Below, piece by piece: positions 2,554 through 30,082 of a DNA stretch of 40,836 bases. The DNA is from a virus, in IMG/VR virus record IMGVR_UViG_3300020202_000048, positions 1-40,836 of that record. One strand, given 5' to 3'. The notes beneath the pieces were generated by a model. It was not told where the DNA came from, made no database searches, and was given only the letters and a program-made list of their open reading frames with translations. The translations under genes were made by a program, and so were the position numbers. Every line of letters starts with the position of its first letter. Within the stretch, counting starts at the first letter, position 1.

Positions 2554-2568
2554 GTTAGGTATATTATA
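2554..2568 (-). promoter_or_regulatory. -10 box upstream of the GH6 gene, near-leaderless
   Basis: On the minus strand TATAAT (2568-2563) is followed by 9 nt and then the ATG at 2553. Transcription would begin about 2-3 nt before the start codon. No Shine-Dalgarno is present. Confidence 0.55.
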
Positions 2569-2581
2569 TACTAAATTGCTG

Positions 2582-3259
2582 TTAAAAGAAAAACTTTGAT
2601 GTGTCCGCGGGAGGTGGCGCACCGCCTGACTCCTTCAATGTGACAACCATCGTAGAACTATGAGTACCACTACTAGTAGTGACGGTATAGCTTTGACCCG
2701 CTGTCGATCCAGCGCTTTTAAATTGAACATGAACAGATGTCCATGAGTCGAAACCTGTGGCTGAATAAAGTGTACCATACGAAGCATCTCCTGTGACACC
2801 CGGCACCTGATTTGTTGCTGCCATTACACCAACAACCATTTCATTTGATTGAGCAAGTGCTGCTGTAGCACCTGAAGCGTGGGTTGTAACCGCATCCGCA
2901 ACAGCTTCAGCAATTTGATCTAATGGAGTAGTAGCCGAAAGACCTGATATTTCAAAAAAGTATGCAGCGGAGTCGGCCCAATTACCCCCTGAATAAAATC
3001 GTGTTGTTTTTGAGCCTGTAGTGCTTACATTTAAGATCAACCACAATTCAGCACGTCGATCACCAATGTTTACAGTTTCGTTTAATTCTACCCATAGTTG
3101 GCTATGAGTAAGATCAGTAAGTGTAGGAGCATCACCTTCACCAGCAGCAAGAGCAACAACCGCAGCATTTCCAGCTGTAAAAGAATGAGCATGGTCCCAT
3201 TGTTGGACATACCCTCCACCTCCGTTTTTTGCTGATGATGATACTATTGCGTAAGCCAT
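2582..3259 (-). CDS. Putative virion/tail-associated beta-rich protein
   Basis: This 225-aa protein is rich in Ala, Ser, Thr and Gly and has an alternating pattern typical of beta-sandwich virion proteins. The N-terminus (MAYAIVSSSAK) has no signal peptide. The C-terminus ends in a flexible APPPADTSKFFF tail after a strand reading MVVTLKE. Its ATG overlaps the stop of the preceding small gene (TAATG), so the two are translationally coupled. It follows the long tail fibre and precedes the GH6 enzyme, which suggests an adsorption-apparatus or decoration role. I do not recognise a named family. Confidence 0.65.
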   Translation of the reverse strand: MAYAIVSSSAKNGGGGYVQQWDHAHSFTAGNAAVVALAAGEGDAPTLTDLTHSQLWVELNETVNIGDRRAELWLILNVSTTGSKTTRFYSGGNWADSAAYFFEISGLSATTPLDQIAEAVADAVTTHASGATAALAQSNEMVVGVMAATNQVPGVTGDASYGTLYSATGFDSWTSVHVQFKSAGSTAGQSYTVTTSSGTHSSTMVVTLKESGGAPPPADTSKFFF

Positions 3260-3501
3260 TATTTTTGTTTCTCTTTATCCTTCTTTATTTTTAGATCCTT
3301 ATATTTTTTGTCAGCTTTGATCTTGTCTTCAGCGCCGACTTCAAGACCGGACTGTTTGCTTGTGATAGGTACTATATAAGTACTACCGTCAGTCAAATGA
3401 ACAGTGAAAGTTTTGCTTTCCCCATTTTCTCCATCCTTATTAGGCACCAGCTTTGCTAGTACCTCAGGATCAAATACGTTGTCGAATGAATGTTTTGCCA
3501 T
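3259..3501 (-). CDS. Small acidic/basic virion-associated protein of unknown function
   Basis: This 80-aa protein starts at MAKHSFDN, 2 nt after the stop of the tail-fibre gene; a longer frame would start inside that gene. The middle (TFTVHLTDGSTYIVPIT) looks like a beta hairpin and the last 20 residues are almost all Lys, Asp and Glu. It is coupled to the next gene by a TAATG overlap. A position just behind the fibre gene is common for fibre chaperones or small tail proteins, but nothing in the sequence proves that. Confidence 0.6.
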   Translation of the reverse strand: MAKHSFDNVFDPEVLAKLVPNKDGENGESKTFTVHLTDGSTYIVPITSKQSGLEVGAEDKIKADKKYKDLKIKKDKEKQK

Positions 3502-3503
3502 AA

Positions 3504-6500
3504 TTATGCTTGTACTCCATAAGCTAGTACGTCCCACTTAGTATCCGCTGCGTTATACATACACTTAAAGTACAACGTCTTGCCCGCTACTGTAGTAGTA
3601 GGAAGTGTGATACCAAGCGCTCGATAAATTGCATTGAAAGCAAGTGTTTGAGCTGATCCATTATCTTTAACTCTGATCCACAATTCCTGTCCGTCTGTTG
3701 GAGTTCCAGTTGGCGCACCAAATGTAGCACCAGCAGCAAGAGCTGTGACGGTGTACATATCATGATCATCAGCACTAGGAGTAGGTGTTGATGATGAAGC
3801 GACTGTTCCAACACGCTTAGTCATGCGCTTGTTGGTCATCGTTTGAGTATCAGTAGTTCCTATAACAGTTCCAGTAGGAACAGTTTTACCAGCCCATGAA
3901 GTGAGCGTTGCGCTGTATGCCTGTACGTTTGTACCAATCACAAGGCCGAGGTTTGTTCGCATTGCAGCATAGTCAGCAGAACCCAAGAAGGTTTGCATGT
4001 TTGCTGAAGGAGCAATACCAGCGTATGTAGTAAGGTTTGCTGAGTAAGCCTGTACGTTTGTACCAATCACTAATCCCAGAGTTGTTCGGACCTGAGCCGG
4101 AGTTCGTGAAGCCCAAGCTGAAGATACGGCAACTATAAAGTTGTCGGTGGTTGCAGTAAGACCAGCAATAGTAGTAAGATCGCTGTCCAAAGGCTGATAA
4201 GCAGAAGCAGCTGCGGAGGTTGTGAGATAAGTTGAGTTGTCATAAGTAATTGTTGTTCCTGATGCTTTTACAAATCCTGTTCCGTTGAGCTGTGCCTGTT
4301 TTGCAGCAAGATCAGTAGTGAGGTTTGTGATATCGGACTGAGGATGGGTGTGTGCTGAAGGAGCAAATGTTGCAGGAATACTTGTGAGAGAAGAATATGC
4401 GTGAGTGTGACTACTTGAAGCAGCATCCGTAATTCCATATCCTGCCAAAGTTGTAGGAAGACCTGAGGTGATATCGGCCCAAGCATGGGTATGTGAGGTT
4501 GATGCTTTACCGGCAAGTGCAGTATTTAAATCAGTTTGGTTAGAAAGAGTACCTCCGATAGATCCCCAGTTTACGGTTGCTGAAATTGCGGTCCATGCAC
4601 CATCTCCTCGAAGGAAGGTTGTATTGTCCGCTGTTCCTGATCCAAGTCGAGCAGCAGCAACGGTCCCTGAAGTAATATCGGCACCGGAGTGAGCATGAGA
4701 AGCAGCAGCATAATCAGTTCCGGCTACAGCAACAGAAACAACACCAGCAGTTGCCTTAAGAATTCCAGCTAATGAAGCAATACGAAGTTCAGCTGGAAGA
4801 TATACTTGTCCATTTTGATTTACAATAATTCGCTGTGCATTTGAAGCCGTTACATCCACAAGCGAAATTGAGTCTGCATCGTTGTATCCTGAAGACAATC
4901 TCCATTCTCGTGTACCCGGTTGGTTTGTTTTTAGTCGAAGTGTTGGAATTGAATATCCTTGAATATTGATATCTGATCCCGAGGTAATACCCGCAACAGT
5001 AAGACTACCCTGCATTGTCCAGTTTCCACTTGTTCCATCAACTGTGGTGTTTGGTGATGCAGAAGGTGTGCCGTGGTAGATATAAAGTGTGCCTTGATAG
5101 TTTCTAAAATAATGCTTTTTATATGTAGCAGTAGCATCATGTGCAATAGTGAGAGCTTGGTCCCCAGCATTGTTTAATACTACGTTCCCTGTAAATATTG
5201 CACCTGAAAGGTTGGCTTTGGCAGCAAGATCGGTAGTAAGGTTAGTAATATCTGATTGAGCATGAGTGTGAGTTGCACTTGCCTTTCCAGCTAAATCAGA
5301 AACGAGGTTGGTGATATCTGATTGAGCATGAGTGTGGGTACTACTTGCTTTCCCGTTGAGCTGAGTCTGAATTGCTGAAGTAACCCCCGCAACATATCCA
5401 AGTTCAGTAGATGTTACAGCCGATACAGCAACCTTGCCGGAAGTATCGGAAGCCAACGCTCGAGAAGCAGTAAGGTTTGAAGAGACGATTGTTGTAGCAC
5501 CTCCGGTAATTGTTGCTTGCTTTGCGTTGAGCTGAGTTTGAATTGCTGAGGTTACACCGTTTACATATCCAATTTCAGTTGCAGTCGTTGTCGCTACTAT
5601 AATTTTTCCTGAAGCATCTGAAACGAGAGCGCGAGAAGCGGTGAGGTTTGTTGTAACAAGACCACTAATGGCACCGGTCATTGCTGCTCGTGCGCGTGTA
5701 TCTGTATAGTAAAGGTTTCCTGACTCAGCGATGTGTGAAGTATTCAAAACAACCACGCCAGTTTGACCGTTTACTGAAGTAACAGCATCGGTAGGTGAAG
5801 CAAGTTCAGACCAGTCAGCCATTGTTCCAGCAGTACCACCGTTATGAATGTATGTCTTACTAATATCACTTCGGATTGCAACATCTCCTTCTTGTGCAGT
5901 AAGTGCAAGTTGCGCTGCTTGTGAAGCAACAGTATATACATCAGTAAGTGCAAGAGCGTGAGTAGAGATCCGAGCATCAACAGCTGTATTAAAGTCAGTA
6001 ATATTTGCTGCAACGTGAGTGTGTCCTGAAGCAGCAGCATCAGTAATTCCATAACCAGCTAAGGTTGTAGGCTTTGAAGTGAGTGATGCAAAAGTGTGAG
6101 TATGAGAAGTATCTGATTTTAAGTTAAGAGCGTTCTGAAGATCTGTTTGATTTGAAAGTGTACCAACAATAGCTCCCCATGTAGGAGTTCCTGAAGAAAC
6201 AGGTATGTAAAATTCAAGGCCAGTACCATCTGAATTTACGCGGACCGCTTCAAGGGCATGACCTTTATAGGTATCGGGTGTATCGGTAAGTGAAATAAAT
6301 TCCCGCGCACCTCCGGCAGGATACATGTGTGATCGAGGCCCAGCAAAACGATCCCAGTTTATAGCAATAGCTTCCTCAGGAATTTTTACCTCACCATCAA
6401 GAAGTTTTTTTATGATTTCATCCGCTGTCGGAGCTACCGGAACATCAATTTTAGGGATAAGAGGCAAGATCAGCTTTCGAAGTCGATCATCTGAAGGTGT

Positions 6501-6839: not shown

Positions 6840-6858
6840 GTTGTTTTTTATTATACCA
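6840..6858 (-). promoter_or_regulatory. Extended -10 promoter of the tail-fibre gene
   Basis: Minus strand TGGTATAAT (6858-6850) is followed by 10 nt and then the ATG at 6839. There is no -35 match at normal spacing. It lies in the short gap after the 1160-aa gene's stop. Confidence 0.6.
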
Positions 6859-6860
6859 CT

Positions 6861-12372: not shown

Positions 12373-14454
12373 TTATTCTAGCTCTATCCAAGTTCGGGCT
12401 TGCCACAAGTAGATAGGAGAAGCGCTATTGTTTCTAATCTTGTAGTGAAACTCATTTGTAGTTTCAGGAAGAGTGTAATTCACACTTATTGGCTCGACCA
12501 AAAAACCGTAAGTTGTATTTATGGTAGCTACCACACTTTCTTTGTGAAGAATTTGCAATGAGATGTTGTCCGTTGAAACATACTCAAACTGACTAGCAAC
12601 ACCAAGACCCATCATGATGTGTTTTGTTCCAACTTGAACAATTACATTCTGACCTCCGAAGCCATAGTTATCATGGTATGAGTGCCAATTTGAGAACCAT
12701 CGTCCTGAAGTGTGCCAATCGGTACCTCGTCTAGCCCATTCACCAACAGGGTTTCCGCTTTGGAAAGTTATAGTATTTGCTGTTGTATCAACAGTAAACT
12801 TTTTTCCTGCCATTGCAGTTGAGTTATGACCAATATAATAGTAATCATTTCCACTTGCTCGGAAGATACGCATTGTATCGTGGCCGTTCATACTGCTTAA
12901 TGCAGTCCCGCCTACTGATGAAGTTAAACTTGATACGTTAATTAAGGCTGTATTTCTTCGATCGAAGTTTACATTTTCATCATAAGTACTTCCCATCCAG
13001 ATGAATTTATCAGTCGCAATTTGAAGTGCTGCATGAGTATATTTACTGTTCATGAGCGCACCACCCATAATGTTCAATTCACCTCCGAAAGATACTGAGG
13101 TTCCTGACACAGAAACCACGATTGTTGTAGGACCAGCTGCCTTTAGGTAGAAAGCCTGAAGTTTATCAGTTCCGTTTGCAATGAGTTTTGTCCAAGTAGG
13201 TGATCCAGTAATGTTGAAGTTTGCACCGTATGAAGGCACAGTTCCAGCGATTGATACTACGTTGTATGTAACCTGAGTACCGTTACCCCATGCAACTACA
13301 GCTTTATCGGTTCCTACAGTTTCGCAAGTTGCTGATCCAGCGATTGCAGTAGCAGCAATTTGAACAACTGCGTTCATCGTAATTGTAGTACCTGAGATTG
13401 TTGCAACACGTCCAGTAGCAAACGATGTTGTTCCCGGAAACACGAAGAACAATTTATCGGTACTAACCATACACATATCTACCAATTCAACATCGGTATT
13501 GTCGTCGATAAGAACCGGAGTACCGAATGTCTGAAGTCCGTTTGCATCAACTGAGGCAATAACAAGATACATACCAGTTGTACCTCCATGTTGGTTATAC
13601 ATCCAAGCTACTCGAGAAGTATCAAGAGGAATAGCTTTTATAATTTGATTACTTCCGTGAGCAGTAAATGGCGCACCAAGAACAGCTCGAGTTCGTTTCT
13701 GAGTATAAATTCGAGGAGAGATTTTTCGAAGTCGTCTTATCGCACGTCCAAAGTGATCAGGAAGAACAACTTTTCGAGAAGCACCAGCAGCAATAAGATC
13801 TGAGGTAAATGCAAAATCTGAGTTTTTCCATCCACCTTGACCCTGTTGGTTGTAATCATCAAAGTTAGTCCATGTCGCATCGTTTACATCAGCAACCGAA
13901 GCGTAACCTGATTGGTTTGACCAGTTTGAAGACCAAAGACCTGTATCAGTTTCAGTTTCTCCTACGCCCGCGCGTGTAGTTCCAAGAGTAGCAGCATCCC
14001 ATGATCCAGCAGTTCCACCTGTTGCAATAGAGTTTCCAGCAGTACCAGCTGTTTTTGCTGTTACAACCAAAGTGTTTGTTGTCCATGAAGTTGCAGCTGA
14101 TACCTGAGGATTTTCCGACATTGAGGCAGCATATTGAGTTCCGACGGTTCCGGTGAGGTTTATTGCATCAATGAGGTTCTGTTGAGAAGCAGCAAGAGAC
14201 GCACCGATTTTGATGTTTCCATCCACATCAGTGAGAGTCGTCTGCCATGTATACGTTTTTCCACCCACCACAGTCGTCTGACCGTTCGTAGGTTGGATCG
14301 ACAAGGTGTATGTACCTTGCGATGCTATCGCGTTGTACAGGAAGATCTTTCGGAAGATTTCCTGAAACATCATTGCTGGCGTCGAGAACAAATATGTCCC
14401 CTTCGGAGCAGTTGCGCCCTGATTTTTTTGTTTGTTTGCGTTAATTACTAACAT
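12373..14454 (-). CDS. Large beta-rich virion protein, possible receptor-binding/propeller protein
   Basis: The protein is 693 aa. Residues 45-150 resemble a common phage structural insert: GKTYTWQTTLTDVDGNIKIG, then SLAASQQNLIDAINLTG and VTAKTAGTAGNSIATGG. Residues 230-600 contain about six units built on a strand such as TDKLFFVFPG, TDKAVVAWGN, TDKLQAFYLK or TDKFIWMGST, the pattern of a beta-propeller. The C-terminus reads NEFHYKIRNNSASPIYLWQA. It lies between a fibre-like gene and the LysM protein. The fold suggests an adhesion or tail-hub part. I cannot assign a named family, and a glycan-binding role is only inferred. Confidence 0.7.
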   Translation of the reverse strand: MLVINANKQKNQGATAPKGTYLFSTPAMMFQEIFRKIFLYNAIASQGTYTLSIQPTNGQTTVVGGKTYTWQTTLTDVDGNIKIGASLAASQQNLIDAINLTGTVGTQYAASMSENPQVSAATSWTTNTLVVTAKTAGTAGNSIATGGTAGSWDAATLGTTRAGVGETETDTGLWSSNWSNQSGYASVADVNDATWTNFDDYNQQGQGGWKNSDFAFTSDLIAAGASRKVVLPDHFGRAIRRLRKISPRIYTQKRTRAVLGAPFTAHGSNQIIKAIPLDTSRVAWMYNQHGGTTGMYLVIASVDANGLQTFGTPVLIDDNTDVELVDMCMVSTDKLFFVFPGTTSFATGRVATISGTTITMNAVVQIAATAIAGSATCETVGTDKAVVAWGNGTQVTYNVVSIAGTVPSYGANFNITGSPTWTKLIANGTDKLQAFYLKAAGPTTIVVSVSGTSVSFGGELNIMGGALMNSKYTHAALQIATDKFIWMGSTYDENVNFDRRNTALINVSSLTSSVGGTALSSMNGHDTMRIFRASGNDYYYIGHNSTAMAGKKFTVDTTANTITFQSGNPVGEWARRGTDWHTSGRWFSNWHSYHDNYGFGGQNVIVQVGTKHIMMGLGVASQFEYVSTDNISLQILHKESVVATINTTYGFLVEPISVNYTLPETTNEFHYKIRNNSASPIYLWQARTWIELE

Positions 14455-15200: not shown

Positions 15201-15218
15201 GTTGAAAATATTATACCA
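15201..15218 (-). promoter_or_regulatory. Extended -10 promoter of the short-fibre gene, overlapping the nozzle stop codon
   Basis: Minus strand TGGTATAAT (15218-15210) is followed by 9 nt and the ATG at 15200. The TAA inside the box is the stop codon of the nozzle gene, so promoter and terminus are superimposed. Confidence 0.6.
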
Positions 15219-16989
15219 CGCTAATAATTTTGCTACTAGAAAACAGCTTCTCCGGTTGCTCCATACCCATGAAGGCAAATTGAGCGATCGTGAATGTTTC
15301 GTCTAGTTCACTGTTTCCAAGTCCCAAAACTATCGCCTGATTTTTTGAGAGGAAAGAAACTCGTTTTTTAATGAACGGACTGTATTCAATAGATCCAGCC
15401 ACACCACCAGCAAACAATCCATCCCCAAACATAACCTCACCAATTAGCGCTCCGAACGAACTGTTACCGAGGAAGAATGATTTATTCTTTTCCTCAGCAA
15501 GGTCGGACGCTTCCTGACGAATAGTTAGTTCAATGGTTCCCACAAGATCCTTAAATAGAATGTCGAGGTAACGGAATATTCTGAAACGATTGAACTGTTT
15601 ATCTTGAAGTCGTCGAAAGAACACCTGAGATGAAATAGGTGTAGCTATATCATTTAAACTAGCTGTCCATCGAATAGCTCCGAACGGCGCCACAGCTTTT
15701 GTGCTGTATACGTTTCCATCAACAACCATGAAGTCGTTTACACGCGCCTTATCTCGTCCTGTATATTTTGTCCAAGAATTTTTATAGAGAGTATGACAAA
15801 CAAAGACCGTATCTACCGTTCCTGTTTCAAGAGGTACACCAAGATAGAAGCGTCGGTTCTCATAGAACACGATCACCTTCTTAAAATTTTCTATAGAAAC
15901 ACGCTTAAGAGTTTCTTTAATTGGTTCAGAAATAACCGATTGGTTAATACCGAAGATACCTGAGACGTTGTCAGAGAAACCGATAGCTCGCACTTCACGT
16001 CCGGTGAAGAACCATAAGTCGTTTTCAACCCATGACACAGCCTTTCGAGAACATGCTCCATAAGTACCCGATTGCTGTTCGAGTTTAGGCACGAAGAGAC
16101 TGACAACCTGATCGTAGTTGAAGGTGAGTTTCCAAATACTATCTTGTTTGAATATGAGCATGGTTCCATAGTAATTTTTCAGGTTGGTTATACTATCAGT
16201 TCCAAGTGGTTTAACAAGATCAGTCGGAGTGAAGGTAGTAGGATTTCCTACGTTTGAATAATAAGCAGTAAGAGGTTCAGCTGTTACACCCGCGATGAAA
16301 AACCGGTCTTCAAAGACTTCGGTGATATTTCCTTTAGGAGCAGTATCGTATTCTGTTAAAGCAGTTCCGGTCCATTTAAAGAAGTTCTCTACGCCGTTGC
16401 CACCATAGAGTTCGTCGTTGTAGACAGTAAAGCCGAATTCCGCGCCTTCAGTGTAGACTCGAGTGACTGTGTGAACTCCAGATTGAGTACCTGAAGTGTT
16501 AATAGCTGCTCCACCAACTGTTGCTGAAAATTGAAAAGCATCTGAAGTTAATCCGGTTGCAATTACATAATAAGTGGTTCCAGCTGTTACACCTGTAGGA
16601 AGGGCGCCTGTTGTACTAAAAGTAATAGGAGTCCCAGCTTTAAAACCATGAGCCACCAGAGTCGCAACCGCCGGTGAGGCCACTGTAATTGTGACGGTCC
16701 CCGCTGCTATATCTGTCCAAAGTCCAGTACCGCTACTATAGTATTTCAGGCTTTTACCAGTACCAGCAACGATAAAAGAGTTTCCATTTTTCTTTTTGAA
16801 ATAGAAGAGTGAGTGAAGAAGAGACGCCTGAGCATTTCCGAACAGAGCAATACCAGTATCTTTTGTGAGATATCCTTCGTCCACGAAGTTCATGTTTACA
16901 GGAACACTTCGACCGTCGGATGCGTCAACGTCGATGATGTCTTGGAGGTTGTCCTGTATGATTGTGAATTTTTGTTGTCGTAATGGCAT
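15211..16989 (-). CDS. Tail nozzle / tail tubular protein B-like (P22 gp10/T7 gp12 type)
   Basis: The protein is 592 aa and starts MPLRQQKFTIIQDNLQDIIDV. It has the arrangement of podovirus nozzle proteins: an N-terminal strand region, then a propeller with units such as GNSFIVAGTGKSLKYY, NDELYGGNGVENFFKW, EDRFFIAGVTAEPLTAYYSN, YGTMLIFKQDSIWKL and ENDLWFFTGREVRAIGFS. A beta-sandwich insert at about residues 95-180 (VAHGFKAGTPITFSTTGALP) is a module often carried by phage structural proteins. It lies directly after the adaptor gene, as in other podoviruses. The nozzle closes the tail tube until DNA release. I am confident of the class, not of any exact orthologue. Confidence 0.82.
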   Translation of the reverse strand: MPLRQQKFTIIQDNLQDIIDVDASDGRSVPVNMNFVDEGYLTKDTGIALFGNAQASLLHSLFYFKKKNGNSFIVAGTGKSLKYYSSGTGLWTDIAAGTVTITVASPAVATLVAHGFKAGTPITFSTTGALPTGVTAGTTYYVIATGLTSDAFQFSATVGGAAINTSGTQSGVHTVTRVYTEGAEFGFTVYNDELYGGNGVENFFKWTGTALTEYDTAPKGNITEVFEDRFFIAGVTAEPLTAYYSNVGNPTTFTPTDLVKPLGTDSITNLKNYYGTMLIFKQDSIWKLTFNYDQVVSLFVPKLEQQSGTYGACSRKAVSWVENDLWFFTGREVRAIGFSDNVSGIFGINQSVISEPIKETLKRVSIENFKKVIVFYENRRFYLGVPLETGTVDTVFVCHTLYKNSWTKYTGRDKARVNDFMVVDGNVYSTKAVAPFGAIRWTASLNDIATPISSQVFFRRLQDKQFNRFRIFRYLDILFKDLVGTIELTIRQEASDLAEEKNKSFFLGNSSFGALIGEVMFGDGLFAGGVAGSIEYSPFIKKRVSFLSKNQAIVLGLGNSELDETFTIAQFAFMGMEQPEKLFSSSKIISVV

Positions 16990-16995
16990 ATATTT

Positions 16996-17634
16996 TTACC
17001 AATGATGCGGATCATTATTGTTGTTATACCCTCCGAACATTCTGATACCATTGAACATAGTACCTCCTCGCTGAGCATCCTCTTCATAATTTGAAAGAGT
17101 AGCGATCTTATCCTTGATCATGTCGTCGTACTTTGTTTGGAAGAATTTTGAAAGCTCAACATCCTGAAGGTCCTCATAGGCTCGATAAAGAATTCCATAA
17201 ACAATAACTTCATCGAAGTAATCATCGAACATTGGCTGACCTCCGGCTTCAAGGTCCTCATACTTTGGATAGTATTTGATATTTAAACTTGTTGTATTTC
17301 GAGGAGATACGCGCATTACTCCACCTTCAATAGACACGGCATTACTAATTCCAGAGTCTCGAGTGAAGTCTGAAATATTTAACTCAACGAAGTGATCGTT
17401 TCCTGTAACAGAATAGGCGTCGGCATACATTGTTCCAAAATCTGTTGGAAGCGTGCCGACACCGTTTACAAAAACTACCGTAGCTGATTTGATCGCACTA
17501 TTAGGAAAAATTTTTCGTGCAATGTCCTTATACGCAAGGTTTGCGTAGATCAAAAGTGTCTCTTCATCAAGAATTTCCGTTCCTGTTTCAAGAAGTTTTT
17601 TACGAGCTAATGCAATTATTTGTTGAGTAGTCAT
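16996..17634 (-). CDS. Head-tail adaptor / tail tubular protein A-like
   Basis: This 212-aa protein starts at MTTQQIIALARKKL, 10 nt after a TATAAT box; the longer open frame would begin inside the capsid gene. The opening helix (TTQQIIALARKKLLETGTEI), then LLIYANLAYKDIARKIFP, then strands in the middle and a helical end, follow the gp4/gp11-type adaptor proteins that fill the gap between portal and nozzle. The Asn- and His-rich tail (GGYNNNNDPHHW) is probably flexible. The stop lies 6 nt before the nozzle start. Context (capsid, adaptor, nozzle) supports the call. Confidence 0.75.
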   Translation of the reverse strand: MTTQQIIALARKKLLETGTEILDEETLLIYANLAYKDIARKIFPNSAIKSATVVFVNGVGTLPTDFGTMYADAYSVTGNDHFVELNISDFTRDSGISNAVSIEGGVMRVSPRNTTSLNIKYYPKYEDLEAGGQPMFDDYFDEVIVYGILYRAYEDLQDVELSKFFQTKYDDMIKDKIATLSNYEEDAQRGGTMFNGIRMFGGYNNNNDPHHW

Positions 17635-17653
17635 TGTTGGTTTTATTATAACA
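17635..17653 (-). promoter_or_regulatory. Extended -10 promoter of the adaptor gene
   Basis: Minus strand TGTTATAAT (17653-17645) is followed by 10 nt and the ATG at 17634. It comes directly after the hairpin that ends the capsid mRNA. Confidence 0.55.
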
Positions 17654-17688
17654 GGCTTATCGCTGTCCCCGAAGGGACAGAGTAAGCC
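17654..17688 (-). terminator. UUCG-loop hairpin downstream of the major capsid gene
   Basis: On the minus strand GGCTTA, then CTGTCCC, loop TTCG, GGGACAG, then TAAGCC form two stacked stems. A UUCG tetraloop is exceptionally stable. No U-run follows, so it may protect the 3' end of the abundant capsid mRNA or be a partial terminator or processing site, not a classical terminator. Confidence 0.65.
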
Positions 17689-17696
17689 AATTAGAC

Positions 17697-18788
17697 TTAG
17701 ATGGTTGCTCGGAGAACTGCACCACGGCCACGGTTTCCAGCGAAAACTTTTCGTCCCCATGTGAGCAATCCTTTACAGGTTGTCATGAATGAGTTTGGAT
17801 CGTTATCTGAAGAAACAATGTTTACCTTCATAATTTGAAGGGCCATTGAACAGAATTCCTTTGTACCAGCAATGAACCACCAACCAGTAGTGTTGTTACC
17901 AGGGATGAGTTCTGAAGTGTAAACTTCGAAACCAGCGATTCGTCCGATACGAGCGCCTTTTACAGCCTCTTCGTATGCAGCTCCAACCGCAGGGATGAAC
18001 TCAGGAGCCTGAAGAAGTACTCCTTCAAATTCTGAGTTTACGACGATAAATCGTCCATCCTTACCAGTCAACTTATTTCCGAGTTTTGTTCGGAGAGCTA
18101 CAAGCTGTGCGTACACGTTTGTCTTTGTAAGGACAACGGCTGTAGCAGCATTGATAACATAAGTAGCACCGGCTGAGATTGCACCACCTGTATATGCTGT
18201 TCCACCAACATCAGTGATTGTGATTGTTGTACCGTTAGTGAAGCCAGTAACAAGGTAGTAAGTCGTATGACCAGCTGCCTTGAAGTAACCACCTACCATC
18301 GCTGCTGTGAAAGCAGTACCAGTACCAGTTACAACACCTGTACCAGTCGCTACTGCAACTGTACCTGTGTTATAGACGTTTCCAACAGCGTTGTCTCCGT
18401 CCACATTCTTTCGCATGTAGTCAAGAATGTCTGTGTCGATAAGAACCTGCATGTCCTTCTTTGAAGTTTGTGCATATTCATTGATTGTATCGACATCGTT
18501 CTGAAGTTTATCAATATCATCTACTGTGAACTTGAAGTAGTGTTGCTGATCAATGATAAGGTCTTCATAAGTAGGAACTAGATCCTGCGCAACGAGGGTC
18601 ATGTTCTTAGTGTAAGGACTCAATACGAGTTTACCGAGGGTTCGGACACGAACTCGATCACCTTCATTACGAATTTCACCTTCGTAATTGGTGTTTGTGA
18701 TTTTTGTATAAATTGTTTCGTTATACAAGAGACTTACCAATTTAAGTGAGTACTTAATCGGAGTCAGTGCGGATAAATTGTTAGCCAC
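17697..18788 (-). CDS. Major capsid protein with a beta-sandwich insertion
   Basis: The protein is 363 aa. The start is GTG at 18788; no in-frame ATG lies nearby, and TAAACT is 7 nt upstream. The opening (SLKLVSLLYNETIYTKITN), YEDLIIDQQHYFKFTVDDID and the end (MKVNIVSSDNDPNSFMTTCKGLLTWGRKVF) match the coat proteins of many HK97-fold podoviruses. Residues about 141-213 are an inserted beta domain (TVAVATGTGVVTGTGTAF ... VGGYFKAAG), as seen on capsid surfaces of other phages. It lies directly after the scaffold gene. Strong hairpins on both sides of this gene may favour high and separate expression. Confidence 0.92.
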   Translation of the reverse strand: MANNLSALTPIKYSLKLVSLLYNETIYTKITNTNYEGEIRNEGDRVRVRTLGKLVLSPYTKNMTLVAQDLVPTYEDLIIDQQHYFKFTVDDIDKLQNDVDTINEYAQTSKKDMQVLIDTDILDYMRKNVDGDNAVGNVYNTGTVAVATGTGVVTGTGTAFTAAMVGGYFKAAGHTTYYLVTGFTNGTTITITDVGGTAYTGGAISAGATYVINAATAVVLTKTNVYAQLVALRTKLGNKLTGKDGRFIVVNSEFEGVLLQAPEFIPAVGAAYEEAVKGARIGRIAGFEVYTSELIPGNNTTGWWFIAGTKEFCSMALQIMKVNIVSSDNDPNSFMTTCKGLLTWGRKVFAGNRGRGAVLRATI

Positions 18789-19603: not shown

Positions 19604-19616
19604 ATATTTGGTCCGT

Positions 19617-19671
19617 CCTTTGCCTTTCCATTCCGATACCGGCGAACCGGTACCGAGAGGAATAACAAAGG
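19617..19671 (-). other. Long hairpin with TTCG loop upstream of the scaffold gene
   Basis: On the minus strand CCTTTG, ATTCC and TCGGTACCGG pair with CCGGTATCGG, AAT and CAAAGG around a central TTCG tetraloop, with small internal bulges. It resembles the hairpin after the capsid gene. It lies between the coiled-coil virion gene and the scaffold, so it may be an RNA processing or stabilising element. Confidence 0.6.
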
Positions 19672-19696
19672 GTTTGGAATTAAACTAACTTTATAA

Positions 19697-22981: not shown

Positions 22982-22999
22982 GTTAAAAATATTATACCA
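22982..22999 (-). promoter_or_regulatory. Extended -10 promoter of the portal gene
   Basis: Minus strand TGGTATAAT (22999-22991) lies 9 nt before the portal ATG, in the 28-nt gap after the terminase stop. Confidence 0.6.
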
Positions 23000-23009
23000 C
23001 AAGTAAATC

Positions 23010-24305: not shown

Positions 24306-24322
24306 TTGCCAACATTATACCA
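24306..24322 (-). promoter_or_regulatory. Extended -10 promoter of the terminase gene
   Basis: Minus strand TGGTATAAT (24322-24314) is followed by 8 nt and the ATG at 24305. The TAA within it is the stop codon of the upstream 96-aa gene. Confidence 0.6.
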
Positions 24323-24605
24323 TGAGTCTCTTCAAAAGTTCACCATTCTCAAGACACCCGCACTTCGAAACAGTTTGTGTGGGATGGTTCGGACACAAAT
24401 TATCCTTTTCCTTATACTCGTTGAAGAGTCTGATTACCTCCGGATCTGTTTCTTGTGAAACCTTCTCAGTAGGCTCGATCTCCTTCTCTTCGCAAAACTT
24501 TTTGAGCGCAGCCTTAATAGCACCGGATACTGTGTAGCCTTTTGCCACTAAACCGTTAATGAGTAAGTCTGTTTGCTTGTCTGTTGATATATTTCGCCTT
24601 GTCAT
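24315..24605 (-). CDS. Small ribbon-helix-helix-like protein with Cys motifs
   Basis: The protein is 96 aa. Residues 4-36 (NISTDKQTDLLINGLVAKGY ... SGAIKAALKKF) fit a strand-helix-helix pattern of ribbon-helix-helix DNA-binding proteins. The C-terminal third has CPNH (71-74) and KCGC (81-84), a possible zinc site. It lies between the small and large terminase genes. Its promoter carries phased GTGTGTA repeats; RHH proteins usually bind such short tandem operators, so self-regulation is plausible. It could instead be a packaging accessory protein. The RHH call is tentative. Confidence 0.5.
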   Translation of the reverse strand: MTRRNISTDKQTDLLINGLVAKGYTVSGAIKAALKKFCEEKEIEPTEKVSQETDPEVIRLFNEYKEKDNLCPNHPTQTVSKCGCLENGELLKRLMV

Positions 24606-24640
24606 GTGTGTATTTTAGCATAGTGTGTATGCGTGTGTAA
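24606..24640 (-). promoter_or_regulatory. Leaderless promoter of the RHH-like gene
   Basis: Minus strand TTACAC (24640-24635), 17 nt, TAAAAT (24617-24612) with an upstream TGC extension, then 6 nt and the ATG at 24605. Transcription would start at or next to the ATG. Confidence 0.65.
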
Positions 24641-24674
24641 AGGTGTGTATAACTATACACAATCGTGTGTATAG
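24606..24674. repeat. Array of GTGTGTA heptamers ending in a palindrome
   Basis: GTGTGTA begins at 24606, 24623, 24633, 24643 and 24665; three are exactly 10 bp apart, one helical turn. The last is half of a perfect palindrome CTATACACA-ATCG-TGTGTATAG (24653-24674). The array overlaps the -35 and -10 of the RHH-like gene. It is an operator array or replication iterons. Confidence 0.7.
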
Positions 24675-24704
24675 AGACGAAGCGCTGAATTTTTCGAAAA
24701 AAGT

Positions 24705-24733
24705 AAAACGGCCCTGTCGATAGGCCGTTTTTT
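24705..24733. terminator. Rho-independent terminator, bidirectional
   Basis: AAAACGGCC-ctgtcgata-GGCCGTTTTTT: an eight-pair stem with A and T runs on either side, so it can work for both strands. Confidence 0.75.
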
Positions 24734-24778
24734 GGGACATTCGTATTGAAATAAATAATTCCGATAGGATATAAGTAG

Positions 24779-24804
24779 TCCTGCTTACCCTATGGGTATC
24801 AGGA
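24779..24804. other. Strong hairpin in the control region
   Basis: TCCTG, CT, TACCC, TAT, GGGTA, T, CAGGA: ten pairs with one small bulge and a 3-nt loop. There is no T-run, so it is not an obvious terminator. It may be a protein-binding site, a structured small RNA or an origin element. Confidence 0.45.
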
Positions 24805-24852
24805 TAACTATTTTAACTAAAAAAAGCAAGTGGATAAGTTGTGGCACAATAA

Positions 24853-24884
24853 AAACCTCGCGTTGTCAACGAGGTTTAAAAAAA
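24853..24884. terminator. Rho-independent terminator after the small terminase gene
   Basis: AAACCTCG-cgttgtcaa-CGAGGTTT with A7 on one side and, on the minus strand, TTTTTATT after the stem. It can end the small-terminase transcript. Confidence 0.75.
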
Positions 24885-24948
24885 TAGGTCTGTAAAATAT
24901 TGACCCTGTACGGGATTGTGACTAAAAAATTTTTGGTGACGTACCCCC

Positions 24949-25005
24949 GTGTATACCACCCCTACCCTATACACATACATATAGACTATACACACATATA
25001 CACAC
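24949..25005. repeat. Opposite-facing TACACAC motif cluster
   Basis: TACACAT at 24970 and TACACAC at 24989 and 24999 (again 10 bp apart), plus GTGTATAC near 24950. It mirrors the array at 24606-24674 across the control region. Confidence 0.55.
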
Positions 25006-25041
25006 ACTCAAACAAAAGGAATGTCTTAAGAAAGACATGAT

Positions 25042-25542: not shown

Positions 25543-25557
25543 ATTACGGATATTATA
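25543..25557 (-). promoter_or_regulatory. -10 box of the small terminase gene
   Basis: Minus strand TATAAT (25557-25552) then 9 nt and the ATG at 25542. No good -35 and no TG extension were seen. Confidence 0.5.
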
Positions 25558-25589
25558 ACCCGATAGCGCCCAATAGGCCACACTTGACA

Positions 25590-25629: not shown

Positions 25630-25639
25630 TTGTCTAGTA

Positions 25640-25674
25640 ATTGTCTTGACAATAATCTAGCTATCGTCTATACT
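25640..25674 (+). promoter_or_regulatory. Consensus early promoter with overlapping palindrome
   Basis: TTGACA (25646-25651), 17 nt, TATACT (25669-25674), the best sigma-70-type promoter in the window. The palindrome ATTGTC-TT-GACAAT (25640-25653) covers the -35, so a repressor could block it. Expected start is about 25681, giving a leader of about 28 nt. Confidence 0.8.
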
Positions 25675-25708
25675 TAGTATATTAGTAAATAGTTAATAAC
25701 ATAGATAT

Positions 25709-25990
25709 ATGGAAAATAAAACAGCGACAGTAAAAAATATGACAGGGCGAACAGGTCGGGAAGTTCCCAATCAATTCGTAATAGCAACACGGGACGGGCT
25801 ATTCTTTCAGAGTTATAAAAGCGTTATTGCTTTTGTACCTTTCGATGGTAGCAAGATCAAGCTAGATCGAACTTACTGGGATTATTCACGAACAACGGGC
25901 AAGTATCGAAATGAGTTTTTGCGAGAAAATAAAGCGGAAACAGTAAAAAAGATCAATGAAGGTGTGTATGAATTGGTAGACCTTAACTAG
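25709..25990 (+). CDS. First early gene, conserved-looking phage protein of unknown function
   Basis: This 93-aa soluble protein has the block PNQFVIATRDGLFFQSYKSV and then DRTYWDYSRTTGKYRNEFL, a pattern I associate with small phage early proteins of unknown function. It is driven by the strongest promoter in the window and ends before a GC-rich hairpin. A role in takeover or regulation is likely from its place, but nothing shows the mechanism. Confidence 0.75.
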   Translation: MENKTATVKNMTGRTGREVPNQFVIATRDGLFFQSYKSVIAFVPFDGSKIKLDRTYWDYSRTTGKYRNEFLRENKAETVKKINEGVYELVDLN

Positions 25991-25997
25991 TCTTTAG

Positions 25998-26021
25998 GGC
26001 GCCGGATCACTCCGGCACCTT
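25998..26021 (+). terminator. GC-rich hairpin after the first early gene
   Basis: GCCGGA-TCAC-TCCGGC (26001-26016), extended by outer AGG/CCT. No U-run follows, so termination may be partial. Confidence 0.5.
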
Positions 26022-26053
26022 ATAAGGCTCAATAAGCCGATTATAAATAAACA

Positions 26054-26068
26054 TACAATATATAATAT
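26054..26068 (+). promoter_or_regulatory. Possible -10 box 9 nt before the 99-aa gene
   Basis: TACAAT (26054-26059) then 9 nt of A/T and ATG at 26069. It keeps the spacing seen at the minus-strand near-leaderless genes. The A/T-rich setting makes chance matches likely. Confidence 0.4.
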
Positions 26069-26368
26069 ATGAATGAATACCTATTAGACCCCGAAGTTTG
26101 CCCAGCCTCACTAAATGAGGACGACGAGCCAACAACGGAAGGCGAAACGGCTCACAAGTGGGACGGTCGAACTTGCTCAGAGTGCGGAGCAACACGCGAA
26201 GCGGAACGCCTCACAGTCAAAAAATTGATTGAACAGCTCGCAAAGTATCCATTGAATAGCCTTGTGTATGTAGATGAGGCGCCGGTGATCTCAGTAGACG
26301 CCGGAGAAATTGAGAAAAGCAACGGGGACGGAACATTCGACGCGGTAATATTAACAATAGATAATTAA
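26069..26368 (+). CDS. Small early protein with CxxC motif
   Basis: The protein is 99 aa. The acidic N-terminus includes NEDDEPTTEGETAHKW; Cys pairs (CSEC at 36-39 and Cys11) suggest a partial zinc site. The C-terminal half (LTVKKLIEQLAKYPLNSLVY) has the helix-strand layout of small phage proteins that begin with an 'I..L..lpld..V' strand. Unknown function. It lies 3 nt from the next gene. Confidence 0.65.
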   Translation: MNEYLLDPEVCPASLNEDDEPTTEGETAHKWDGRTCSECGATREAERLTVKKLIEQLAKYPLNSLVYVDEAPVISVDAGEIEKSNGDGTFDAVILTIDN

Positions 26369-26371
26369 AAT

Positions 26372-26707
26372 ATGAAAAAAGCAATTATAGTTTTGGTTTT
26401 GGTAGCCGGAGCAGTTGGGACTTATTACTATATGGAGTATAAAAACTCTATAGTTATCGAGAACACGCAAGCGGTAGAAGCTCGCGAAGTGATCGACCCA
26501 GAGACAAAAAAGAAGCAAGACGAGATCAACACATACATGCAGACCGAAGAATTCAAGCGTCAGGCGCTCGCATCTGCTGAATTATGGTGGGAAAAGAAGC
26601 GAACGGCAGAACTTGAGGCAGAATTAACAGCGCGAACAACTGAGATAAACGCAAAAATCAAAGCCAGCAAGGACCGAGCGCTTGAATTGAGTCAGCAGGG
26701 TTTTTAA
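26372..26707 (+). CDS. Membrane-anchored coiled-coil protein, zero-frame part of a probable frameshift gene
   Basis: The protein is 111 aa: one N-terminal transmembrane helix (residues 4-22, AIIVLVLVAGAVGTYYYME), then a charged helix and a coiled coil (ELEAELTARTTEINAKIKAS). The last codons are CAG GGT TTT TAA; G-GGT-TTT (26698-26704) is a canonical X-XXY-YYZ slippery heptamer. A -1 slip there would lead directly into the wall-hydrolase-like frame that follows, which has no start codon of its own near the domain's beginning. Alternatively this gene stands alone. Confidence 0.75.
   Translation: MKKAIIVLVLVAGAVGTYYYMEYKNSIVIENTQAVEAREVIDPETKKKQDEINTYMQTEEFKRQALASAELWWEKKRTAELEAELTARTTEINAKIKASKDRALELSQQGF
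26698..26704 (+). promoter_or_regulatory. Candidate -1 ribosomal frameshift site (GGGTTTT)
   Basis: The heptamer is in phase (G GGT TTT) and followed immediately by TAA. A weak stem (GGTG...CACC, or AGGT-TAGC-ACCT) begins 5-10 nt downstream. A one-base error in the T5 run would give the same picture. Confidence 0.5.
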
Positions 26708-27105
26708 TCGGTGGACAGGTTAGCACCTTAAAATCCTATCTGAAGCAATACAACAGTCCGCTTGTTGCTTACGCTTCAGAGATTGTCGAATTGCCTCGAT
26801 GGGTTGAGGCGGTATCTATTGCCGGAGCAGAAACACATTTTTGCACCACAGGGACAGCCGTTTCTAAAAATAATTGTGGAGGAATACGGCCAAAAGGCGC
26901 CGTGACCGGTTTCGTTGACTATTCAACAGATTTCGAGTCAGTAAAAGCTATTTCAGATCTTATCAATCGACCTTTATATAAGGATAAATCTATTGAGGAG
27001 ATGAACGGCATTTATTGTACGGAGGAAGTCGGATCACCGGACGGAGTTTGTCCACGATGGGAAAAAACAATTAACAAACACATAGACAATATAATATTCA
27101 ATTAA
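26704..27105 (+). CDS. Lytic transglycosylase/glucosaminidase-like domain (minus-one frame)
   Basis: From the slip site 133 residues are open to the stop at 27105. The nearest start-type codons are TTG at 26791 and CTG at 26740, but domain-like sequence already begins upstream (QVSTLKSYLKQYNSPLVAYA). The block VSIAGAETHFCTTGTA, then NNCGGIR, matches the active-site region of lysozyme-like wall hydrolases (Glu in AGAET). The downstream helix pattern (FESVKAISDLINRP) also fits. With the upstream membrane anchor it would make a 244-aa tethered wall enzyme in an early operon. Family assignment is by motif only. Confidence 0.65.
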   Translation, partial: LIGGQVSTLKSYLKQYNSPLVAYASEIVELPRWVEAVSIAGAETHFCTTGTAVSKNNCGGIRPKGAVTGFVDYSTDFESVKAISDLINRPLYKDKSIEEMNGIYCTEEVGSPDGVCPRWEKTINKHIDNIIFN

Positions 27106-27109
27106 ATAT

Positions 27110-27295
27110 ATGACACGCACAATCACAAAATCAAAAGCAAAATCAAAAATATACTATAAAGTTTTAGGCGATATGCAGGGTGTTCTATACGTTTTAGGGT
27201 TCACTTCAAGCCGGTCAGCATGGCTCAAGAACCCAAACGGATGGAGAAAGGACCAGCTAAAATTTATCCCTTTAAGATCAAAAACAAATGAGTAA
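27110..27295 (+). CDS. Small basic hypothetical protein
   Basis: This 61-aa protein is strongly basic (TRTITKSKAKSKIYYKVLGD), with a central strand pair (VLYVLGFTSS) and WLKNPNGWRK. Its end overlaps the next ATG by 8 nt. It may bind nucleic acid because of its charge, but no motif proves this. Confidence 0.55.
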   Translation: MTRTITKSKAKSKIYYKVLGDMQGVLYVLGFTSSRSAWLKNPNGWRKDQLKFIPLRSKTNE

Positions 27296-27470
27296 TATTA
27301 ACCTATCAAAATATCGTCACGCAGATTTTGGAGCAATGGAGGATGACGATTTACTCGAAGCGCGGGAGGAATTGTGCGCAAAGATCGAAGAAGGGACAGG
27401 ATTTAAGCATACTGAAGCACTAGCCCAGCTATTAGAGATTGAAAGAGAATTAACTATTAGAGAAGAATAA
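27288..27470 (+). CDS. Small acidic helical hypothetical protein
   Basis: This 60-aa protein is acidic and helical (DDDLLEAREELCAKIEEGTG). It overlaps the previous gene and lies 9 nt before the next. The basic/acidic pair may form a complex, but this is a guess. Confidence 0.5.
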   Translation: MSNINLSKYRHADFGAMEDDDLLEAREELCAKIEEGTGFKHTEALAQLLEIERELTIREE

Positions 27471-27479
27471 TTTATTTGT

Positions 27480-27683
27480 ATGATTTTAAAAACCCTCTCA
27501 GATTTAATACCGCTACTCGAGAAACACAGTCCGGCGCAAATAGGCAAGATGCTCAAGCCTAAACGATCACGCGCAACGATCTATTCATATATGAAACAGC
27601 TTAGGGACGCGGGTTATAAACTTCCGACAAGAAAAGCGGGACGGCCAAAAATTCCGCTTGACAATAGGCAGGAAAACATATAA
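27480..27683 (+). CDS. Small helix-turn-helix protein, likely regulator
   Basis: The protein is 67 aa. Residues 17-46 (SPAQIGKMLKPKRSRATIYS ... QLRDAG) read as a helix-turn-helix, followed by a basic arm (KLPTRKAGRPKIPLD) with an AT-hook-like GRPK. It is the last gene of the first early operon and is followed by a perfect inverted repeat. It is a candidate repressor or activator for the palindromic operators in this genome, but no binding target can be assigned from sequence. Confidence 0.6.
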   Translation: MILKTLSDLIPLLEKHSPAQIGKMLKPKRSRATIYSYMKQLRDAGYKLPTRKAGRPKIPLDNRQENI

Positions 27684-27684
27684 A

Positions 27685-27707
27685 CTTAACACCTATAAGG
27701 TGTTAAG
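27685..27707 (+). repeat. Perfect inverted repeat after the HTH gene
   Basis: CTTAACACC-TATAA-GGTGTTAAG, nine-base arms, starting 1 nt after the stop codon. No T-run follows. It may be an operator or an mRNA 3' hairpin ahead of the real terminator 30 nt on. Confidence 0.7.
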
Positions 27708-27734
27708 CCATATAGACTGCGGTATACACACACG

Positions 27735-27764
27735 AAAAAAGACCCTTGCGGGTCCTTTTTCTTT
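27735..27764. terminator. Bidirectional rho-independent terminator
   Basis: AAAAAA-GACCC-TTGC-GGGTC-CTTTTTCTTT separates the plus-strand early operon from the converging minus-strand helicase gene and can stop both. A TACACAC motif lies just upstream (27725-27731). Confidence 0.85.
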
Positions 27765-27768
27765 GGTC

Positions 27769-29055
27769 CTAATGAGGTCGGTCATTATTACCAATGCTAT
27801 CAAAGAAGATGTCAGCCTCCGTCGGTGCTTCCTGTTCTTCCTCAGCGGTAATGCCACGGCTCTCGAGTTCCGTAATACCTTTGATATGTTCTATACGACG
27901 TACAATATTGTAATCGCTTTCTGTTTTAAATCCCCATGTAAGACTTCCATCGTCACCCATTCGATCAAGTACACCCACTGAGGCAAGGTTCTGAAGGATC
28001 ACGCGCACTATTTTAGTGTCGAGTCCTACCATGTCAGCAATACTTGAGGTCGTAACCTTAGTATCGAAGGCCACGCTTGCCACTACCTTAAGCACGGCGC
28101 GCTTCTCTTCGTTTGCGAGTGAGTAGGCCATCCAGTCTATTGTCCCCATGTCCTCGTCATTAAAGTCACATGAACCTGTTTCGTATAGCTTAATCGCTCC
28201 AAGTCCTTTTACTACGGACGTAAGCTGTAGAGCCACACGCATAGGCATGGCAGGTACAGGGATTTTGTCGATCAGTTCGCCTCTCCATTCCTTGTGCGCT
28301 GTAGTTCGTACCCGTTCAGCAAACATTGAGACTTCTATAATGCGCTCTTTTACATTCTCAGGCAGTTCTATTTTTGCAGGATCAATGCTTTTTACTACCT
28401 CTTTTATATAGTCACCGTACATATCGCTCATGATCTTATCGAGTTCGCGACCGTATACGGTACGGGATAGAGCAAGTCGAGTAGCTTTCAGCGGGTCCGC
28501 TTCCTTCATTCTGTAATATATAAATCGCTCACCCATGTCCGCGACATCCTCAAAGTGTGCATAGATAGAAGGCGTAGAACCCGCAAGCATACCCAAATAT
28601 CCAGTACCAGACGCGGGCCACTTGATCGGCTTCGGACTATTTCCAGAGTACTTAGTCATCTCTCCATCGTAGAGCATACGCAACTGAGAAAGGATCGTCG
28701 CGCGGGACTCAGTACTCTTACTCATAAGCACAGTGAAGTCTGATATAACAATGATACCCTGATTACCAATGCGCAAGAGCAACGACACAGGCTCATCGCC
28801 TTTTACTTTTGCACCAGATAGGAAAGTGTTTTCTGTAAGGTCATCAACACGGTGTATAAATTTTTCATCAGTCATCGCAAGGGGTCGGAGTATTTGTGAC
28901 TTACCACCAGACGATGCACCGATAATGATTAACCAAACAGGATCGCCGAGCTTCAAACGGTTGGCAATAACAGAAGCTAAAGAAACATCTATGATCGAAG
29001 TGTCCTCAAAATATTGGTACTTTTGAATTTCGGTTTTTAATTCGTTGAGTTTCAT
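27769..29055 (-). CDS. P-loop ATPase, probable replicative helicase
   Basis: The protein is 428 aa. Walker A is GASSGGKS (46-53); Walker B is IIVISDF (101-107, Asp106). The core continues through SQLRMLYDGEMTKY to the region GTGYLGMLAGSTPSIYAHFE. A winged-helix-like segment is near residues 320-365 (VTTSSIADMVGLDTKIVRVI). The overall look is of phage helicases related to the DUF3987/D5 or MCM-like groups. The ATG overlaps the primase stop (ATGA), so primase and helicase are made together, which supports a replisome role. The tail is acidic. Confidence 0.75.
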   Translation of the reverse strand: MKLNELKTEIQKYQYFEDTSIIDVSLASVIANRLKLGDPVWLIIIGASSGGKSQILRPLAMTDEKFIHRVDDLTENTFLSGAKVKGDEPVSLLLRIGNQGIIVISDFTVLMSKSTESRATILSQLRMLYDGEMTKYSGNSPKPIKWPASGTGYLGMLAGSTPSIYAHFEDVADMGERFIYYRMKEADPLKATRLALSRTVYGRELDKIMSDMYGDYIKEVVKSIDPAKIELPENVKERIIEVSMFAERVRTTAHKEWRGELIDKIPVPAMPMRVALQLTSVVKGLGAIKLYETGSCDFNDEDMGTIDWMAYSLANEEKRAVLKVVASVAFDTKVTTSSIADMVGLDTKIVRVILQNLASVGVLDRMGDDGSLTWGFKTESDYNIVRRIEHIKGITELESRGITAEEEQEAPTEADIFFDSIGNNDRPH

Positions 29056-29990
29056 ACAAGTTTATTTAATTGCTCAACGGCTTCCCGAAACTTCACGCCG
29101 TTTAATTTGCTATAGATGTCGATCGCATCATAGCTTTTGCCACACCCGCCGAAACAGTAACAGGTATTTGTTTTCGGATAATAGTGGAGGCTAGGAGTCT
29201 TCTCATTATGGAACGGACAGCGCGCTGTATTCTTTTTGAACTCCATCAGGTTTGTTATCGGATATGCACGCGCATTTGTTACTACATCATTTGAGTACGT
29301 TTTCCTTTCGGCATGTACATTGGCAACCTTAGTATGCGCCTTTATATATGCGTCATGAAAATACACTGATTGAAATGTAGCAATGCGCCGTGATCTGTCT
29401 TCAGTCACTTCATCTATAGACTCAAACTTTCGCGCGGTCTTTAGTAGCTCATGTAGATTGCCTCCAACATTTACATAGTCAGATATATCCTTCACGTTCG
29501 GCATGTCCGGTATGAACATCACCTTCGCCCACGGTAATATATCGAGCGTCTTCACTAAACCTTCCGCGCCCGCATGGTCATTGTCGTAGCAGATAATAAT
29601 ATCCTTCGCGAATTCTCCGTCTTCTTTTGGCAGGAAATAATCCTTCCATTCATCTTGGAATGATTGCGCTCCACCTGTAGAAGTAACAGCGGGGATGTTA
29701 TGGCTCCATGCAACAAGACAATCTTTTTCTCCTTCGGTTATTAAAATTGGGTTACAGTCTTTTGCTTTGTGGATACCATACAGGGACACCTTACCTCCGC
29801 GATCATACTTATACTTCGGACCTTCATTTGATAGAGGACTTCGTCGGTACTTATTAAAAATAAAATTCCCTTCAATATCATAGACGGGAATAACGATGTC
29901 TTCAGCAAACGAAAGATTGAACTCTTCTTGTACACTCTTTGTTATTTTATTGGCAGTAAGCCAATCCTGAAATACTTTATTAAATTGCAT
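29052..29990 (-). CDS. Primase-like protein with TOPRIM before the CHC2 zinc domain (permuted order)
   Basis: The protein is 312 aa. The start at 29990 is chosen because TGGTATACT ends 6 nt before it; an upstream ATG would be inside the promoter. Residues 82-140 are TOPRIM: PILITEGEKD (Glu86), TSTGGAQSF, and CYDNDHAG (Asp136, Asp138). Residues 255-312 are a CHC2-type zinc domain: CPFHNEKTPSLHYYP, then CYCFGGCGKSYDAIDIY with Cys258, His261, Cys279 and Cys283. In DnaG and T7 gp4 the zinc domain comes first; here it is last. The region between (residues 170-250) is unassigned. It should prime DNA synthesis with the helicase downstream. Confidence 0.85.
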   Translation of the reverse strand: MQFNKVFQDWLTANKITKSVQEEFNLSFAEDIVIPVYDIEGNFIFNKYRRSPLSNEGPKYKYDRGGKVSLYGIHKAKDCNPILITEGEKDCLVAWSHNIPAVTSTGGAQSFQDEWKDYFLPKEDGEFAKDIIICYDNDHAGAEGLVKTLDILPWAKVMFIPDMPNVKDISDYVNVGGNLHELLKTARKFESIDEVTEDRSRRIATFQSVYFHDAYIKAHTKVANVHAERKTYSNDVVTNARAYPITNLMEFKKNTARCPFHNEKTPSLHYYPKTNTCYCFGGCGKSYDAIDIYSKLNGVKFREAVEQLNKLV

Positions 29991-30005
29991 AACACTAGTA
30001 TACCA
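29991..30005 (-). promoter_or_regulatory. Leaderless extended -10 promoter of primase-helicase
   Basis: Minus strand TGGTATACT (30005-29997), 6 nt, ATG at 29990. TTGCAA lies 15 nt upstream. It is divergent from the SF2 helicase promoter 40 bp away. Confidence 0.65.
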
Positions 30006-30044
30006 AATCCTTTTATGTTGCAATAGTGGAAAACACACTCAACC

Positions 30045-30082
30045 TACTTGCGGTAAGTATGTCAATATGATAGACTATATAT
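30045..30082 (+). promoter_or_regulatory. Leaderless promoter with palindromic operator (copy 1)
   Basis: Palindrome TACTT-GCGGT-AAGTA (30045-30059) covers the -35 TTGCGG (30048-30053). A 17-nt spacer with TATG, then TAGACT (30071-30076), 6 nt and the ATG at 30083. The mRNA should begin at the start codon. Confidence 0.8.

Follow-up and report, generated by a model that had tools for sequence, protein, structure and literature searches.

The window analysed here (the whole 40,836-base stretch, an IMG/VR virus record) belongs to a podovirus-like phage, and its genes were assigned from open reading frames. The genes, promoter-like boxes and other elements discussed below are collected in Table 1. 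SPFH and AAA genes are also present, and no phage RNA polymerase was found among the window proteins scanned. The GH6 (cellobiohydrolase-family) domain sits in the phage tail module, and GH6 matches among the phage records searched were limited to Streptomyces phage Gilgamesh and one faecal phage.

Table 1. Coordinates of genes, boxes and other elements in the window
Feature	Coordinates	Strand	Remarks
Terminase large subunit	24305-23010	-	
Portal-like gene	22981-21260	-	Named by position and general features, without family match
Putative scaffold gene	19603-18833	-	Named by position and general features, without family match
Major capsid protein (MCP) gene	18788-17697	-	
SU10-like adaptor	17634-16996	-	
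PTR tail fibre (tail-fibre-like gene)	6839-3504	-	
GH6-like gene	2553-1582	-	
DnaG-like primase	29990-29052	-	
Helicase	30083-31231	+	
TGGTATAAT, extended -10 box	6850..6858	-	10 nt before ATG 6839, tail-fibre-like gene
TGGTATAAT	15210..15218	-	9 nt before ATG 15200; relatives share this box, which overlaps the upstream gene's end
TGTTATAAT	17645..17653	-	10 nt before ATG 17634, SU10-like adaptor
TGGTATAAT	22991..22999	-	9 nt before ATG 22981, portal-like gene; relatives share this promoter
TGGTATAAT	24314..24322	-	8 nt before ATG 24305, terminase large subunit
TATAAT without correctly placed TG	2563..2568	-	9 nt before ATG 2553, GH6-like gene
TATAAT without correctly placed TG	25552..25557	-	9 nt before ATG 25542
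TGCTAAAAT	24612..24620	-	Exactly 6 nt before ATG 24605
TGGTATACT	29997..30005	-	Exactly 6 nt before ATG 29990, primase-like
TGATAGACT	30068..30076	+	6 nt before ATG 30083; weak -10 within repeated element 30046-30086
TGTTAGACT	32658..32666	+	6 nt before ATG 32673; weak -10 within repeated element 32636-32676
TGATATAAT, sixth exact box	39268..39276	-	27 nt before ATG of ORF 39240-38974
TGCTATACT	32608..32616	-	38 nt before ATG 32569; leader about 32 nt
TTGACA-17-TATACT promoter-like site	25646..25674	+	For ATG 25709; leader about 28 nt
ACTTGCGGTAAGT (ACTT-N5-AAGT inverted repeat)	30046..30058	+	Over the -35 position
Leader hairpin CC-AAAC-stem-AC-GG, conserved	19608..19682	-	Upstream of putative scaffold gene

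An initial annotation had described extended -10 boxes shortly before start codons, and a base-by-base check found all 11 of the quoted boxes at the spacings given. Exact TGnTATAAT occurs at six sites in the window, five of which end 8-10 nt before a leftward start. Nearly all boxes carry the TG extension, a -35 element is missing from most of the window's own start-adjacent boxes, and the boxes before 30083 and 32673 are TAGACT with poor -10 scores. Since most window boxes lie at a spacer of 8-10 nt, strictly leaderless transcripts (0 nt) would be expected only for the genes starting at 24605 and 29990, and perhaps 30083 and 32673.

Boxes do lie within the span to which the pattern had been assigned (2554-30082), but the pattern inside it is not uniform. 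An adjacent box precedes only 8 of the 21 late genes of the window, and the MCP, scaffold and most tail genes are without one. Many box-less late genes begin -8 to +16 nt from the previous gene and also lack a Shine-Dalgarno (SD) sequence, and the other box-less late genes have no recognisable promoter. The best -35/-10 pair in scans of the window is the site before the leadered 25709 gene. With so few late genes boxed, the proposal that each has its own promoter was not upheld; nor was that of genome-wide near-leaderless expression, as the 25709 and scaffold genes are leadered and the portal spacing reaches 35 nt in relatives.

The box before 24605 lies in a non-coding gap of 436 nt (24606-25041), and two terminator-like hairpins (24853-24877 and 24705-24731) are found upstream of this promoter. 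The gap also holds ACACAC/GTGTGT-rich inverted repeats, in which 24624-24651 pairs with 24987-25014, and is a candidate origin, packaging or control region. On the plus strand, a 41-nt element occurs in three copies (30046-30086, 32636-32676, and 33434-33474), with identical copies of ACTTGCGGTAAGT at 32636-32648 and 33434-33446. The element also contains a TATGnTA... -10-like box, its third copy precedes a leadered gene, and it likely serves several rightward genes as their operator.

Boxes in related phages

By using the terminase, primase, and capsid in IMG/VR searches, over 75 related loci were collected, nearly all with a capsid identity of 56-75% to the window. Possible failure of the boxes to align in related phages, a check suggested with the initial annotation, was examined, and the boxes were found to recur before orthologous genes with aligned, conserved N-termini, including the terminase, portal, 15200-type gene, adaptor, 25542 gene, and primase. 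The terminase spacer is 8 nt in the window, 10 in L001, and 6 in L003 and L004, and the portal spacer is 9 in the window and in L022, 6 in L031, and 7 in L001. A homologue of the 25542 gene (L021) has TGATATAAT 6 nt before its ATG, and the primase homologues of L034 and L035 have TGATATACT at the same spacer. Across relatives the portal box lies 6 to 35 nt before the ATG, and 25-35 nt in some of them, which implies that abutment is not essential for this gene.

A tally of spacers was made for 73 exact boxes, after similar upstream regions had been collapsed and with the window's own boxes included. Two boxes were found at 0-5 nt, 41 at 6-11 nt, 6 at 12-17 nt, and 13 at 18-35 nt, and the remaining ones are mostly scaffold leaders. 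The peak is at exactly 6 nt (12 boxes) and involves many different genes. One of the two exceptions at 0-5 nt (L101) has a second in-frame ATG exactly at spacer 6. About 6 nt separate the -10 hexamer from the transcription start, so that with a spacer of 6 transcription would begin at the A of the ATG; that almost no boxes lie below this value is as predicted for leaderless transcripts.

A TTGACA-like -35 element (at least 5 of 6 matches), aligned 17 bp upstream, accompanies 19 boxes, whereas 51 have none. Boxes of both types precede the same orthologues in different relatives, which looks like a lineage difference rather than one between early and late genes. In L090 and L105, spacer 6 is found behind full -35/-10 promoters, and few genes are boxed in relatives G002, G004, and G007. 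On the basis of their conservation, the TG extension, and the -35 elements at 17 bp, the reading of the boxes as sigma-70-type promoters is well supported.

Initiation without Shine-Dalgarno sequences

The absence of recognisable ribosome-binding sequences extends well beyond the boxed genes. SD-like tetramers precede 8% of the starts in the window and 11% of internal ATGs, which bears out the earlier remark that SD sequences are nearly absent. Across the window and eight large relatives (GC 31-58%), the values are 0-13% of starts and 7-12% of internal ATGs, while the same count in T7 gave 72% and 15%; the starts of P23-45, phiYS40, and crAss001 have such tetramers in 60%, 33%, and 23% of cases, respectively. 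Upstream of box-less genes, A reaches 62% at -6 and 64% at -3, and G is only 4-8% from -9 to -1. Because genes without a box are likewise SD-free with A-rich, G-poor upstream regions, the general feature appears to be SD-independent initiation, of which leaderless promoters are one part.

The phage family thus has a mixed leaderless and leadered programme that is SD-free, as far as can be read from its sequences. Quite probably, sigma-70-type promoters are placed so as to give leaderless or near-leaderless mRNAs at a subset of its genes, and leaderless initiation at such a subset is likely. The boxes would act as -10 elements, mostly TG-extended, for a housekeeping-type RNA polymerase of the host. 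Transcription would start on the A of the ATG at spacer 6 and 1-4 nt before it at spacers of 7-11, so that genes leading short transcription units would have such mRNAs, and ribosomes would presumably start on the 5'-terminal AUG. Scaffold, MCP, most tail, and most rightward genes would instead be internal to transcription units or follow leaders of 20-40 nt. The earlier statement that mRNAs begin at or just before the ATG therefore fits the placement of boxes at many starts, for which the exact start sites are predicted ones, and does not extend to the leadered genes or to those within units. A box nested in the end of the upstream gene saves space, which may explain why the arrangement has been kept.

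Several other explanations of the boxes were considered. The total number of TATAAT sites in the window is ordinary (29 found, 26 expected), as would be the case if the boxes were chance matches in AT-rich intergenic DNA, and the signal consequently lies in where they are placed. Of the 51 called starts in the window, 8 have a box with at most one mismatch 5-12 nt upstream, whereas none of 202 internal in-frame ATGs does, and exact TGnTATAAT is approximately 97 times denser upstream of genes than in gene interiors among the relatives (725 unique upstream regions). Together with the recurrence in relatives, these internal-ATG and gene-interior controls rule out chance matches, whose probability is practically negligible. 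It is also very improbable that the motif is a translation signal, i.e., a non-SD ribosome site whose position it resembles, since it carries a TG extension and is also found 25-48 nt upstream; the -35 element at 17 bp rules this reading out.

Real promoters could also appear start-adjacent if the true start codons lay elsewhere and the transcripts had normal leaders, and several boxed ORFs can indeed be extended through the box via GTG, TTG, or ATG (15278, 17760, 23050, 25590, 2622, and 30038). Such misassignment is unlikely, because homologous proteins share the downstream methionine as their start and show little similarity ahead of it, and it would not give a spacer peak at exactly 6 across many different genes. 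A more substantial alternative, possible although doubtful, is that boxes come close to ATGs through genome compactness only; ribosomes would then initiate in an ordinary non-SD manner on leaders that are short and A-rich, and leaderlessness would have no role of its own. The packing of the genes (gaps of -8 to +28 nt), the variation of the portal spacer from 6 to 35 nt between relatives, and the lack of SD in all genes are in line with this. Against it, boxes peak at spacer 6 and are nearly absent at 0-5 nt, which suggests active placement, and in L090 and L105 this spacer follows complete promoters.

A leader hairpin upstream of the putative scaffold gene

In addition to the start-adjacent boxes, a hairpin in the leader of the putative scaffold gene was found in the window and nearly all of about 75 relatives (for example, L024:4990-5021, L080:4547-4579, and L077:668-702). 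Invariant CC-AAAC and AC-GG flank a variable inner stem, and the hairpin mostly lies 9-17 nt before the scaffold ATG. In about 20 relatives an exact box is found 40-48 nt before this ATG, which places the hairpin within a leader of 34-42 nt.

To examine covariation, 26 sequences were aligned with MAFFT. In this alignment 88.6% of cells are paired under the named structure. Its covariation score is 0.583, whereas shuffles gave 0.162 and sliding the structure gave no more than 0.116; the pair adjoining CC/GG shows four pair types and no failure. A covariance model finds the hairpin about once per phage (24 bits for the window copy) and nothing convincing in control records. In Rfam, no match reached the gathering score, and a permissive search likewise gave none of note. 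The hairpin is thus possibly a new cis-regulatory RNA, and it offers a concrete RNA element for study in an SD-free translation system.

The scaffold gene of phage P22 is under translational control, and a literature search returned nothing usable on its post-transcriptional autoregulation. Translational control of the scaffold gene would be a natural hypothesis for the role of the hairpin. More tentatively, these phages may be a widespread family, infecting hosts without SD initiation, that uses two SD-free start modes: leaderless promoters at unit-leading genes, and a leader with the new hairpin at the scaffold/capsid unit, which might recruit ribosomes or let a phage protein, perhaps the scaffold itself, control translation.

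Known systems and possible hosts

SD-free phages of Bacteroidota have A-rich upstream regions, as does this family, and Bacteroidota promoters are of the TAnnTTTG type. The Bacteroidota phage crAss001 (NC_049977) resembles the family in its weak or absent SD; however, it has no exact TGnTATAAT near its starts, whereas this family has sigma-70 TTGACA/TATAAT promoters. The Thermus phages phiYS40 and P23-45 differ in their clear SD sequences.

Leaderless genes with an adjacent -10 element are known from earlier work, which also describes the TG form in low-GC bacteria (PMC3160421, PMC12340547), while this phage group is undescribed. In TA-led bacterial genes, a TATAAT-like signal lies approximately 10 bp before the start, and in several low-GC groups TG peaks just ahead of the Pribnow box (Zheng et al. 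2011, PMC3160421). The phage likewise has boxes about 6-10 nt before starts above background, sigma-70-type promoters, and no SD; yet TA-led genes coexist with many SD-led genes, whereas no SD above background was found in nine genomes of the phage family. In Deinococcus-Thermus, a -10 element 6-7 bp before the ORF has been tested as a working promoter (Zhong et al. 2025, PMC12340547), and nearly one third of D. radiodurans genes have an ORF-adjacent -10. Those bacteria use a TANNNT/TACACT motif and also GGAG sites, in contrast to the TGnTATAAT boxes and missing SD of the phages. Phage transcripts have been reported to be often leaderless in a paper on AR9 (PMC5312081); what differs here is a family-wide promoter placement and the lack of an SD background, both read from sequence alone.

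With regard to the host, the data are consistent with leaderless translation, but the earlier claim that they imply such a host does not follow, because leaderless genes are widespread in bacteria (PMC3160421) and so indicate no single host. A stronger clue is that SD is missing from every gene, and the host must accordingly begin translation without a ribosome-binding sequence. TGA is the stop codon of 30 tallied conserved genes in relatives and of 6 of 44 window genes, so that the genetic code is probably standard; these stops rule out a recoded host that reads TGA as an amino acid (Gracilibacteria, Absconditabacteria, or Mollicutes). Scanning a terminase alignment against genome contigs gave distant matches only and no close relative; tblastn of the MCP, terminase, GH6, and 29055 proteins against phages gave distant matches or none, the 29055 protein had no match in plasmids, and Pfam, NCBIfam, and PHROGs gave no hint of a host. 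No study on leaderless or SD use in Patescibacteria or Saccharibacteria was found in a literature search, and a saccharibacterial host is a guess that draws on GC content, the standard code, and the missing SD. An uncultured phage family whose genes have no SD signal, with leaderless promoters predicted for many key genes, limits the possible host bacteria and may help to correct gene starts in such genomes.

Some relatives show features of their own. G002 (L113 and L114; capsid locus L065) has 66% capsid identity and a GC content of 58%, compared with 42% in the window and 31-43% in the others; it has almost no boxes by consensus, and SD is also absent. A cluster of 23 tRNA genes is present in the approximately 41-kb relative L122 (G006, 16297-18725), the window having none. 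Four tRNA genes are found in L116 (G003, 12686-13135), and tRNA genes were also seen in G004.
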